Assembly (NCBI GenBank): GCA_020975725.1 | Contig: QXJR01000016.1 | Coordinates: forward strand, 310,001-374,000 | DNA: 64,000 bases | Source of the DNA: Picocystis sp. L7 | Lineage: Eukaryota > Chlorophyta > Picocystophyceae > Picocystales > Picocystaceae | Reading direction: 5' to 3' | Part shown: positions 58,719-64,000 of the stretch, in pieces | Numbering within the stretch: the stretch's first letter is position 1 | Layout of the letters: each line of letters begins with the position of its first letter | Notes under the pieces: model-generated | What the model was told of the DNA's origin: nothing | The model's input: the letters and a program-made list of their open reading frames with translations, nothing else | Databases searched by the model: none | Made by a program: the position numbers and the translations under genes

Positions 58719-59109
58719 GGTCGATGGGTAGCTCCCGTTTGCTCGTGGGATGGCGCAGTGGAAGTCGAACGATGTGCACGTCTGATCAATAGAGGACTTC
58801 GGATTTGCCCCGACGAACAACTTCGGAGGGTTTTTAACCAAAAAAAATCCCTAAACCCGGATTTGGGGATCCTCCGTCGAGCCAAAACCGGACGAAATCG
58901 TGGGGTTTTCGGCGGATGAAACCTTGCGTCCTCTACGCATCTCGTACAGTTGGGGGATGAGAAAGCCTACGGATTGGCCCAGTATGGGATCCTAAAAAAC
59001 AGATGCGCAGAGGATTTCGTCGGACGGTCAGCCTCGACCGAAACCTAGAGGATCCTCCGCGGTATACATTCGCATCGAGGAACGCGGGAAGCAAACAACG
59101 CCGAGCACG
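58719..59109. mobile_element. left end of Harbinger element and CURT1 promoter
   Basis: 391 bp between the CURT1 start and the transposase start. It must hold the CURT1 promoter and the left terminus of the transposon. Repeated words CGGATTTGCCCC/CGGATTTGGGGA and A/T runs (about 58829-58862) differ from the rest of the window. The exact terminal inverted repeat cannot be fixed because the right end is outside the window. Confidence 0.4.
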
Positions 59110-60300
59110 ATGCCTCAAAGGTATGGTCGAGTGCTCCAGATCATCCAGACGGAGGAGATGCGGGAGAAGAGCTTGCGGATGCGGGAGGCAATGCTCGTCG
59201 CGTTCCCTAACCATCCGGAGCTGTCGATTGCACTCTCGTCTGCTTTTGCAATGGTGGTCCTGCGTTGCCAACGCTTGCTGCGTCAGATGAAGCAACGCTG
59301 GAATCCTCGGGTTGCTATTTCGAACAACGCGCGTTGGCTGGACGATTTCGAGGACGCTACGTTGCGTGGGAACTTTCGTTTTGATCGTGGTCACATTCGG
59401 GAGCTTATCCGCTTGTTAGAGATCCCCGAGCGGTTGCGGAGTCCTACTTGTGGACGTGTTTTCAAGGGAGAAGAAGCGTTCCTTCTCTTGTTGCGCAGAC
59501 TAGCGGGACGGGAAACCCTGACACACTTGGCCACGATCTTCGATCGTTCACCTCCTGCCCTGTCCGAGATGTACAACGTGATCCTTCGTCACGTGTACAG
59601 GATCGCAAGAGTATCAATGCGTTTAGAGCTATGGGAGGACGAGTTGGCAGCTTTCGCGCATGCATTACGGGAACAGGGATGTCCGTTGCCTCATTGTTTT
59701 GGGTTCATTGATGGGACGATGTTTGACATATGTCGTCCCATCATTGACCAGGAAAGCATGTACAACGGATGGAAGCGAGGGCACAAAACGAAATACCAAT
59801 GCGTGGTGTTGCCTAATTTTTTGATTGGTGATTGGCATGGACCGGCAAGTGGCCGAACGAACGACTCGGTGATGTTGGATGACTCTAGATTGATTCCGAG
59901 GTTGCAGGGGATGCGCGATCGTTTTGGTAGCACGCTGTACATGTATGGTGATTCAGCTTATCCACAGTGTGACGTCCTCCTACGCGCTCCAAAAGGAAAC
60001 AGGATCACACGCTCAGAACGCATGCTGGCGCGGGACATGTCTCGATACCGTGAAAGTGTGGAGTGGGTGTTTGGAAAGCTTGGGAACATATGGCCCTTCA
60101 TTACTGACAAGACGAGGAAGGTTACAGGTTCGCGAGCAACAGGTATGGAGGACTGGGTAGCGGCAATGTTGACTAACTTCCACACTTGTGCATACGGAGG
60201 CGTTGCGAATAGGTTCTTCGAGATGCAGCCTCCATCTATGAGTGAATACAAGGCGAAGTTTGCTGCGCATGTAGATGTGTCATCTGCATCAGAGCCATGA
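59110..60300 (+). CDS. Harbinger transposase (HARBI1-like, DDE_Tnp_4)
   Basis: 396 residues, intronless and intact. An N-terminal helical part is followed by a helix-turn-helix-like region with FRFDRGHIRELIRLLEIPER, CGRVFKGEEAFLLLLRRLAG and TLTHLATIFDRSPPALSEM, quoted in short parts. The catalytic triad is visible: FGFIDGTMFDICRP (first Asp), LYMYGDSAYPQ (second Asp) and YRESVEWVFGKLGNIWPF (Glu). GHKTKYQCVVLPN and GPASGRTNDSVML are further DDE_Tnp_4 hallmarks. It is the catalytic partner of the Myb-like protein encoded at 63086-63952. Its stop codon is immediately followed by degenerate minisatellite units. Confidence 0.95.
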   Translation: MPQRYGRVLQIIQTEEMREKSLRMREAMLVAFPNHPELSIALSSAFAMVVLRCQRLLRQMKQRWNPRVAISNNARWLDDFEDATLRGNFRFDRGHIRELIRLLEIPERLRSPTCGRVFKGEEAFLLLLRRLAGRETLTHLATIFDRSPPALSEMYNVILRHVYRIARVSMRLELWEDELAAFAHALREQGCPLPHCFGFIDGTMFDICRPIIDQESMYNGWKRGHKTKYQCVVLPNFLIGDWHGPASGRTNDSVMLDDSRLIPRLQGMRDRFGSTLYMYGDSAYPQCDVLLRAPKGNRITRSERMLARDMSRYRESVEWVFGKLGNIWPFITDKTRKVTGSRATGMEDWVAAMLTNFHTCAYGGVANRFFEMQPPSMSEYKAKFAAHVDVSSASEP

Positions 60301-60304
60301 GAGT

Positions 60305-62793
60305 CATCTCTCGCTCCTTGCAAAAATTATCTGGACGGTTGCAAAAGTCTGCTGGATGGTTGCTGGAAGGTTGCAGAAATCTGCTGGATGGTTTCTCGCT
60401 GGTTGCAGAAATCTGCTGGATGGTTGCTGGATGGTTGCAGAAATCTGCTGGTTGGTTGCTGGAAGGTTGCAGAAATCTGCTGGATGGTTTCTCGCTGGTT
60501 GCAGAAATCTGCTGGATGGTTGCTGGATGGTTGCAGAAATCTGCTGGTTGGTTGCTGGAAGGTTGCAGAAATCTGCTGGATGGTTTCTCGCTGGTTGCAG
60601 AAATCTGCTGGATGGTTTCTCGCTGGTTGCAGAAATCTGCTGGATGGTTTCTCGCTGGTTGCAGAAATCTGCTGGATGGTTGCTGGATGGTTGCAGAAAT
60701 CTGCTGGTTGGTTGCTGGAAGGTTGCAGAAATCTGCTGGATGGTTTCTCGCTGGTTGCAGAAATCTGCTGGATGGTTGCTGGATGGTTGCAGAAATCTGC
60801 TGGTTGGTTGCTGGAAGGTTGCAGAAATCTGCTGGATGGTTTCTCGCTGGTTGCAGAAATCTGCTGGATGGTTTCTCGCTGGTTGCAGAAATCTGCTGGA
60901 TGGTTTCTCGCTGGTTGCAGAAATCTGCTGGATGGTTTCTCGCTGGTTGCAGAAATCTGCTGGATGGTTGCTGGATAGTTGCAGAAATCTGCTGGATGGT
61001 TTCTCGCTGGTTGCAGAAATCTGCTGGATGGTTTCTCGCTGGTTGCAGAAATCTGCTGGATGGTTTCTCGCTAGTTGCAGAAATCTGCTGGATGGTTGCT
61101 GGAAGGTTGCAGAAATCTGCTGGATGGTTTCTCGCTGGTTGCAGAAATCTGCTGGATGGTTGCTGGATGGTTGCAGAAATCTGCTGGTTGGTTGCTGGAA
61201 GGTTGCAGAAATCTGCTGGATGGTTTCTCGCTGGTTGCAGAAATCTGCTGGATGGTTTCTCGCTGGTTGCAGAAATCTGCTGGATGGTTGCTGGATGGTT
61301 GCAGAAATCTGCTGGTTGGTTGCTGGAAGGTTGCAGAAATCTGCTGGATGGTTTCTCGCTGGTTGCAGAAATCTGCTGGATGGTTGCTGGATGGTTGCAG
61401 AAATCTGCTGGTTGGTTGCTGGAAGGTTGCAGAAATCTGCTGGATGGTTTCTCGCTGGTTGCAGAAATCTGCTGGATGGTTTCTCGCTGGTTGCAGAAAT
61501 CTGCTGGATGGTTTCTCGCTGGTTGCAGAAATCTGCTGGATGGTTTCTCGCTGGTTGCAGAAATCTGCTGGATGGTTGCTGGATAGTTGCAGAAATCTGC
61601 TGGATGGTTTCTCGCTGGTTGCAGAAATCTGCTGGATGGTTTCTCGCTGGTTGCAGAAATCTGCTGGATGGTTGCTGGATAGTTGCAGAAATCTGCTGGA
61701 TGGTTTCTCGCTGGTTGCAGAAATCTGCTGGATGGTTTCTCGCTGGTTGCAGAAATCTGCTGGATGGTTGCTGGATGGTTGCAGAAATCTGCTGGTTGGT
61801 TGCTGGAAGGTTGCAGAAATCTGCTGGATGGTTTCTCGCTGGTTGCAGAAATCTGCTGGATGGTTGCTGGATGGTTGCAGAAATCTGCTGGTTGGTTGCT
61901 GGAAGGTTGCAGAAATCTGCTGGATGGTTTCTCGCTGGTTGCAGAAATCTGCTGGATGGTTTCTCGCTGGTTGCAGAAATCTGCTGGATGGTTTCTCGCT
62001 GGTTGCAGAAATCTGCTGGATGGTTTCTCGCTGGTTGCAGAAATCTGCTGGATGGTTGCTGGATAGTTGCAGAAATCTGCTGGATGGTTTCTCGCTGGTT
62101 GCAGAAATCTGCTGGATGGTTTCTCGCTGGTTGCAGAAATCTGCTGGATGGTTTCTCGCTGGTTGCAGAAATCTGCTGGATGGTTGCTGGATGGTTGCAG
62201 AAATCTGCTGGTTGGTTGCTAGAAGGTTGCAGAAATCTGCTGGATGGTTTCTCGCTGGTTGCAGAAATCTGCTGGATGGTTGCTGGATGGTTGCAGAAAT
62301 CTGCTGGTTGGTTGCTGGAAGGTTGCAGAAATCTGCTGGATGGTTTCTCGCTGGTTGCAGAAATCTGCTGGATGGTTTCTCGCTGGTTGCAGAAATCTGC
62401 TGGATGGTTGCTGGATAGTTGCAGAAATCTGCTGGATGGTTTCTCGCTGGTTGCAGAAATCTGCTGGATGGTTTCTCGCTGGTTGCAGAAATCTGCTGGA
62501 TGGTTTCTCGCTGGTTGCAGAAATCTGCTGGATGGTTGCTGGATGGTTGCAGAAATCTGCTGGTTGGTTGCTAGAAGGTTGCAGAAATCTGCTGGATGGT
62601 TTCTCGCTGGTTGCAGAAATCTGCTGGATGGTTGCTGGATGGTTGCAGAAATCTGCTGGTTGGTTGCTGGAAGGTTGCAGAAATCTGCTGGATGGTTTCT
62701 CGCTGGTTGCAGAAATCTGCTGGATGGTTGCTGGATGGTTGCAGAAATCTGCTGGATGGTTTCTCGCTGGTTGCAGAAATCTGCTGGATGGGA
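60305..62793 (+). repeat. 32-bp minisatellite, about 77 units
   Basis: Nearly perfect tandem array. Each unit has a constant part GGTTGCAGAAATCTGCTGG and a 13-bp variable part: ATGGTTTCTCGCT (type C), ATGGTTGCTGGAT (type D) or TTGGTTGCTGGAA (type A). Types often run C-D-A, a 96-bp higher-order unit, with interspersed runs of C; some D units carry GGATAGTT. The first two units (60305-60368) are degenerate (for example GGTTGCAAAAGTCTGCTGG), and the last breaks off at ATGGGAAGCGG. No unit contains a stop on either strand in any frame over long stretches, hence spurious long open frames. Confidence 0.98.
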
Positions 62794-63085
62794 AGCGGAG
62801 TACGGTGTGTACAGTATGAATGTTACATTGCGAAATGTTTTGCATTGGTGAGTGACAACCTGTGGATGTGGATGATGAAAGGTTGCAAGTGGTGGAGTTG
62901 TGTTCTGTCTTTTCCACCCTACTGAGTCATCGCACTCTTTGTAATAAAGGTAAGAAACAAAATTTCTTTTATGCAACAACATCGCGGTCGACATAGCTCG
63001 CAAGTAGGGAACTTCCGAGGACGCAAAGTTGTGGAATGGACGAAAAAGAAGTAGGAATAGAAATTTGCAAATCTACTTTACGTTC
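62794..63085. other. spacer between minisatellite and Myb-like gene
   Basis: 292 bp, AT-rich, with GTAATAAAGG (62941-62950) that could end plus-strand transcripts. No gene. Confidence 0.4.
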
Positions 63086-63952
63086 TCAAGTAGCTTCGTT
63101 CACGACAACCTCCTCCATCTCCGACGAAATGGTCGAGGGTCTGGAAGATGAACGGCGGAGAAGGCTCCCATTCTCCTCCTCGAAGGTGTTCACAGCAGCT
63201 GCTACCCATTCGTCGCGTGGTCCTGGGCTTGGAAAGTCGTTCGGGAACCTCTTGTGAAGCTCGAACTCGCGTGCCCACTCGGCACGTGCATTGGAACGCG
63301 TCGCATGGAGCAAAGCTTTACGCGTGAGATCGCAAATGTCGTCCATGCTCTTACGAGTGTCTTCGACCTCAGCACACAAAGCACCATCGTTTCCTTTGGA
63401 CATGGACGACCGTCCGCGCTTCGCCGTTTGGCGGTGCGTCTCCATTTGACGACTCACGTTGTTGCGCCCTTGCTCCGTCAATGTTGCACGTCGCAAAGCA
63501 AGTTCGTCACGTACAGCCTTCGATGCTGCAGCTCGCTCGTCGATCTTCTCCACCAAACGTTGTTGAAGTTCCTCCACCTCTGTATGGGCATACCCCCCTC
63601 CTCGACCAGTAGAGGCCCTTGCATCCTCGTTCCACTTCCGCGCCTCTCGGGCCAACATAGCTACCCGCCGCTGAACAGAATCGATAGACAATTCGAACTC
63701 CGCGAAAAGTCCATCAGTGTGCTCTCGGAGGGATGCAACCAAAGCCTCCCACGCTTTCTTCCTCTGATCACGATTTGCATCGACCTTGAATGGGTCACAT
63801 GACTCCACGCAAATCTGATTCAAGAGCGCGTACTTCCGTGCGTTCGTCCACGTATTGCGTGATCTTTGATCTTCCATCGACTTGGCGGCCTTCGAGGTTG
63901 TTACGTTGACATCTTTCCTTTTGAGAGGAGGCCTGTCCTCTTCTTGCACCAT
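63086..63952 (-). CDS. Myb/SANT-like DNA-binding protein of the Harbinger element
   Basis: 288 residues, intronless. A Myb/SANT-like trihelix domain (about 33-110) has the Trp-containing helices TWTNARKYALLNQICVE, KKAWEALVASLREH and VQRRVAMLAREARKW. A Glu/Arg-rich coiled coil follows (VEELQQRLVEKIDERAAA), then a basic spacer and a C-terminal charged part (WAREFELHKRFPNDFPSPG). PIF/Harbinger elements carry such a second protein, which binds the transposon ends and carries the transposase to the nucleus. The ATG at 63952 is close to the window end; no upstream in-frame start is visible in the 48 bp that remain. Confidence 0.85.
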   Translation of the reverse strand: MVQEEDRPPLKRKDVNVTTSKAAKSMEDQRSRNTWTNARKYALLNQICVESCDPFKVDANRDQRKKAWEALVASLREHTDGLFAEFELSIDSVQRRVAMLAREARKWNEDARASTGRGGGYAHTEVEELQQRLVEKIDERAAASKAVRDELALRRATLTEQGRNNVSRQMETHRQTAKRGRSSMSKGNDGALCAEVEDTRKSMDDICDLTRKALLHATRSNARAEWAREFELHKRFPNDFPSPGPRDEWVAAAVNTFEEENGSLLRRSSSRPSTISSEMEEVVVNEAT

Positions 63953-64000
63953 CGCATGCGCGATTCGGAAGTTGCTCCTGGCGCCCTTGACAGCAAGATC

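Follow-up and report, generated by a model that had tools for sequence, protein, structure and literature searches.

The window analysed here, a stretch of 64,000 nucleotides, covers C14:310001-374000 in the 20.5-Mb, 30-contig genome of the green alga Picocystis sp. L7. A histidyl-tRNA synthetase frame in the window also points to a host that is probably a green alga: a few animal proteins lead its matches by E-value (49–56% identity across about half of the query), green algae reach higher identity (e.g., Micractinium at 66% and Bryopsis at 64%, over 59%), and one unnamed protein is 82% identical. At its right end lies a transposon of 5,511 bp, which by comparison of six copies extends from window position 58791 to C14:374301, so that the window holds all but its last 301 bp. 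Two stop-free frames face each other in this element, and Tandem Repeats Finder (TRF) counted 76.7 copies of a 32-bp unit between their 3′ ends, in agreement with the original prediction of two intact facing genes separated by about 77 such units. The features are as follows, with window positions unless a contig is named:

58788..58790, no strand: left target site duplication AAT (3 bp), from equal 3-bp flanks among the copies
58791..58835, + strand: left terminal inverted repeat, 45 bp, beginning AGAGGACTTC, from comparison of both ends
59110..60300, + strand: coding sequence of a DDE transposase, 396 aa, starting MPQR (start picked from an alignment; frame open from 58996)
60337..62791, + strand: 32-bp minisatellite, 76.7 copies, unit types A–I (TRF), beginning 36 bp past the transposase stop
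60339..60370, + strand: diverged first unit (type H) at the left edge of the array; type H also occurs inside the array of the C11 copy
62823..62827, − strand: TGTAA, candidate poly(A) signal between the second ORF and the array (role suggested by Chlamydomonas)
62940..62944, + strand (that of the transposase): TGTAA, candidate poly(A) signal beyond the array (putative role)
63086..63952, − strand: second ORF, 288 aa from the ATG at 63952, facing the transposase (earlier called Myb/SANT-like; domain unconfirmed)
ending at C14:374301, outside the window: right terminal inverted repeat, 45 bp
C14:374302-374304, just beyond the window end: right target site duplication AAT, from equal 3-bp flanks

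The transposase frame, open from 58996 to 60300, matches PF13359 (DDE_Tnp_4) with an E-value of 4.9e-17, and its 434 codons are free of stops in all six copies. Residues D239, D319, and E356, each at least 90% conserved among 13 aligned transposase sequences, sit within FIDGT, GDSAYP, and VEWVFG, respectively, which we take to be the catalytic motifs. The nearest named relatives come from the EukProt sets of Pavlova lutheri (47–63% identity) and Pico_ML (52–60%), the latter presumably Picocystis (proteins P0005, P0016, P0020, P0021, and P0035). The matches from P. lutheri, a haptophyte, could reflect contamination or horizontal transfer, and a scan for relatives in viral contigs gave none confirmed. 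No stop interrupts the second frame between the window end and 63086, nor in any of the six copies. Several groups of the PHIS/Harbinger superfamily have a Myb/SANT domain in their second ORF, but for the window element this label is unconfirmed: profile searches of Pfam and PDB returned no match to such a domain, the best PDB match was no better than E 0.39, and an AlphaFold model with a mean pLDDT of 46.8 is too weak to judge a Myb/SANT fold.

The six copies of the element are found on contigs C14, C11, C27, C23, C21, and C3. All of them, as read from filled sites, are bordered by equal 3-bp flanks: AAT at four copies, ATT at one, and AGT at one (AGT/AGT for the C3 copy). An insertion of 1,510 bp close to the left end of the C3 copy (C3:57428-59108) has similar inverted ends, TTCT...CGTCACCCC, of its own, so that it is probably a nested DNA transposon. 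A genome search with the end sequence of the element gave 14 matches; 13 of these are ends belonging to the six copies, the other is diverged and lies at C14:599123, and small non-autonomous relatives were not found by this search. The nearest sister family shares 66% transposase identity, has ends beginning AGAGGACTT, and is flanked by AAT duplications in both of its two copies. Four of the six copies lie no more than about 85 kb from the end of a contig (C11:57-64 kb, C3:53-59 kb, C21:60-65 kb, and C23:80-85 kb), perhaps indicating a subtelomeric bias. Because the copies are near-identical, recent activity of this apparently intact transposon is suggested.

In having a DDE_Tnp_4-type transposase with conserved D, D, and E, terminal inverted repeats, and a 3-bp target duplication, the element agrees with the PHIS/Harbinger transposons. 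Furthermore, the duplications follow 5′-ANT-3′ at the six copies and at the two copies of the sister family, which fits the Pangu group of the PHIS superfamily (PIF/Harbinger, ISL2EU, Spy); Pangu elements, as far as the available text describes them, share with ours the ANT duplications, ends starting with AG, and the pairing of a DDE transposase with a second ORF (PMC4482050). The Pangu inverted repeats of 11–40 bp start with AG or GG, and those of the window element start with AG but at 45 bp are slightly beyond this range; the five copies without the insertion are 4.4–7.3 kb long, compared with a Pangu average of about 3.5 kb (PMC4482050). The description of Pangu likewise reports no known motif detected in the second ORF (PMC4482050, text available in part). 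With its convergent transposase and second gene and its ANT duplications, the element fits a Pangu-like member of the PHIS superfamily.

The array in the window is regular (91% matches, 0% indels, TRF score 3944), and its length is different among the six copies. Written as strings of unit types, the arrays contain 75 units in C14, 132 in C11, 41 in C27, 52 in C23, 52 in C21, and 55 in C3; the lengths differ by whole units, and there are five distinct arrays among six near-identical elements. Outside the array, over 3,111 bp, the C11 copy has no substitution relative to C14, the C27 copy two, and the C23 and C21 copies three each, and the C3 copy has one over the 3,035 bp compared. For example, the C11 array consists of the first 49 units of C14, the units DAABCAB, the edge unit H, and then all 75 units of C14 with one changed; judging from this unit order, it looks like a large, near-whole tandem duplication of the C14 array in which the edge unit was drawn inside. 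The C21 and C23 elements are identical and lie between different flanks, indicating that an array can also be carried unchanged. A genome search for the unit (up to three mismatches) gave 413 matches, and all 413 were within the six copies. Given the shared ends, the range of 41–132 units, and this confinement, the array varies in length within the element and moves along with it. This is what the original prediction had proposed, together with the comparison of copies on which it could be judged; no copy without the array and no unit at an unrelated locus was found. Its further suggestion that the array could seed satellite DNA received no support, as every match to the unit fell inside the six copies. 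A coding role was considered and rejected for the window array: 32 is not a multiple of three, the transposase stop comes before the array, the two longest frames across the array (858 and 922 aa) are off the frames of both genes, and stop codons occur in units of types D, E, and F.

Arrays of this kind recur in related elements. A protein search of the genome gave 93 transposase and 70 second-ORF matches, some being pieces of one gene, and many of these form facing pairs. From such pairs 33 spacers were sampled: that of the window, then 2, 20, and 8 others, and 2 partial ones (L078 and L079, each covered for its first 701 bp out of about 8.0 and 7.6 kb, respectively). The sample is non-random, as pairs were matched by eye, mostly among the strongest transposase matches, and further pairs were left out. 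An array was called at a TRF score of at least 100, at least 2.5 copies, and a period of at least 9, a rule that drops one 6-bp background array (L017). With near-identical sister spacers counted separately, a minisatellite was present in 27 of the 33 spacers between transposase and second ORF, the window's included, vs. 4 of 118 background segments, the spacers being 501–2786 bp long and the segments 1,000 bp; the background comprised 60 kb flanking the copies and 58 kb from within the window, rather than annotated convergent host gene pairs. The expectation that Harbinger spacers are usually short and plain thus does not describe this sample. Since six spacers are without an array by the rule (L050, L058, L060, L074, L075, and L078, the last for its first 701 bp only), the array is not required.

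The spacer arrays fall into 13 groups by shared 11-mers, a count that depends on the 11-mer rule. Between related spacers the unit lengths differ and the sequences largely differ, with the place of the array remaining the same; the units are short, 14–69 bp, apart from a 4-bp TGGA run in L062. Copy number varies in other families as well. In a second family, the C1 and C13 spacers hold 22.1 and 99.1 copies, respectively, of one 23-bp unit and align at about 99% in pieces covering both flanks. For a 41-bp unit, the genome search gave 179 forward matches (up to one mismatch), of which the 100 listed are all in one spacer, C3:818,728-822,779; the spacer at C23:332k contains 1.9 copies of a similar unit.

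There are several individual cases. The spacers L051 (C4:474300-475300) and L071 (C4:950250-951190) are identical over 941 bp, array included, which points to segmental duplication or to transposition in the very recent past. The sister-family spacer at C8:584621-592627 is about 8 kb long, its first 701 bp (L078) being without an array; perhaps another element has inserted there. In L076 (C4:496200-497000), the transposase frame stays open through an array of 63-bp (21-codon) repeats, so translation at this locus may run on into the array and give the protein a C-terminal tail of repeats. When reversed, the window unit is similar to an array in another element, at C11:8000-9300 (score 103, against a maximum of 50 among 60 null scores), and, more weakly, to those of L060 (56 vs. 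36 in the null) and L072 (52 vs. 41), which suggests that an inversion or exchange between elements may have occurred in the C11:8000-9300 case. A likeness to L052 suspected by eye was rejected at a score of 29 against a null mean of 26.6.

The position of the arrays was surveyed at 28 loci (L050–L077) with a looser TRF score, yielding 25 arrays. These begin at a median of 43 bp past the transposase stop and end at a median of 248 bp short of the second-ORF stop, with the exception of L076, where the array precedes the transposase stop. TGTAA is the main poly(A) signal in Chlamydomonas, according to the available part of one report (PMC3439250). Among ten long ORFs of the window, it occurs within 300 bp after the stop in five, and on the opposite strand there in none (0/10). 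Around the spacer arrays, with near-identical sisters counted separately, TGTAA in the transposase sense is present for 16 of 25 arrays, and all 21 instances fall on the side of the array that faces the second ORF, as do 24 of 26 on the opposite strand. The signal beyond the array on the transposase strand would place the array in the 3′ UTR of the transposase, as we infer from these motifs.

The arrays also share an orientation. In 22 of the 23 spacers with at least five CAGCAG/CTGCTG words, near-identical sisters again being counted separately, CAG is in the transposase sense, and the one exception is the window, flipped to CTG; in the background the two words occur at 0.54 and 0.56 per kb. 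For RNA in the transposase sense, predicted folding of four arrays shows no consistent departure from shuffled sequence (z −0.62, −2.26, +1.05, and +1.01). On the opposite strand, z is −4.47 for the window, −5.05 for L067, −0.33 for L051, and −0.32 for L066, and the predicted fold beats all 200 shuffles in two of the four; such strong folding can be explained by the repeat holding an inverted repeat alone.

Taken together, the array is best explained as a recurrent, tolerated 3′-UTR minisatellite in an apparently intact Pangu-like PHIS transposon, grown by slippage, unequal exchange, or repair, to which we assign a probability of about 0.75. Arrays would arise where CAG/CTG- and TGGA-like words form short direct repeats immediately after the transposase stop; slippage, unequal exchange, or repair-template switching would then enlarge them. 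They would be tolerated because a place in the 3′ UTR of the transposase keeps them clear of the ends and of the coding regions. Instability may, hypothetically, be promoted by facing transcription across a CAG/CTG-rich tract; converging transcription has been described to destabilize CAG tracts in an experimental system, in the part of that report available (PMC3463551). Pure tolerance does not obviously explain why CAG has the same orientation in 22 of 23 spacers and why arrays recur in 13 unit groups. Common descent could be behind both, but the units mostly differ too much to reveal it.

Or the array may be a functional 3′-UTR or terminator module whose presence is selected while its sequence turns over, for example, a strand-oriented CAG-bearing tract that dampens transposase expression or separates the two converging transcripts. 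In favour of such a module are the shared position in 27 of 33 spacers, the median distances of 43 and 248 bp from the two stops, and the CAG orientation set against its background density; against it, the window family is flipped to CTG, six spacers are without an array, RNA folding is inconsistent among the four arrays with an opposite-strand signal that the inverted repeat can explain, and an orientation can persist through descent alone. We therefore consider this reading rather unlikely, and give the same low weight to its fuller form, in which a transposon clade in one alga keeps an oriented, CAG-bearing 3′-UTR module as a tunable brake or spacer, with presence and orientation selected and units replaced.

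Much less probable is a role of the units as internal sites to which the second-ORF protein or the transposase binds. Harbinger accessory proteins presumably bind DNA, and the inverted repeat GCAGA-AA-TCTGC is kept in 405 of the 407 units in the six unit strings, although homogenization of the array alone would keep it. The kinship of unit and element ends that the original prediction had raised did not emerge, since resampled units scored as high in 220 of 300 trials against the left end and in 300 of 300 against the right. Moreover, related families have quite different units, and profile searches detected no DNA-binding domain in the second ORF. Lowest of all we rate the reading of the array as an unrelated minisatellite captured by the transposon or as an assembly artefact. 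The reversed likeness to the array at C11:8000-9300, and more weakly to L060 and L072, would suit exchange or inversion between elements. Against this reading stand the confinement of all unit matches to six elements, the ordered duplications in the unit strings, the length differences in whole units, and the regular occurrence of arrays in the sampled relatives, which already weakens capture. The tolerated 3′-UTR minisatellite thus remains the preferred reading.

Comparable arrangements are known in part. An ANT-targeting Harbinger of Ectocarpus also has two tail-to-tail genes and ANT duplications, but unlike in the window element no intergenic minisatellite is mentioned, “minisat” being absent from the text available (PMC12477816). 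Similarly, “tandem repeat” and “minisatellite” do not appear in the main text on Pangu, in contrast to the internal minisatellite found here (PMC4482050, seen in part), and “tandem” and “spacer” are absent from the accessible text of a survey of fish Harbinger elements (PMC9179366). Merlin transposons have internal tandem repeats in several families, as the window element does, but they belong to a different superfamily, and the part of the report available describes no fixed place between convergent genes (PMC8101967). Tetris, a foldback element of Drosophila virilis, also carries tandem repeats inside a transposon; according to the available text, these measure about 220 bp, are part of the inverted ends, and occur in satellite-like arrays as well (PMC4079207), whereas the repeats of the window element are internal and found only within it. 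In the open-access literature searched, none of the titles and abstracts listed described a minisatellite between the two genes of a Harbinger or Pangu element.

Tandem repeats inside transposons are thus already known, and the main new point is that, in this genome, most sampled relatives of the element carry such arrays. One fixed place with units differing between families, ranging from no array to at least 132 units, offers many replicate cases of the birth and growth of a minisatellite. With near-identical copies holding 41–132 units, one could measure how much the repeat changes per substitution or per transposition, and the arrays open a test of whether converging transcription fosters minisatellites.
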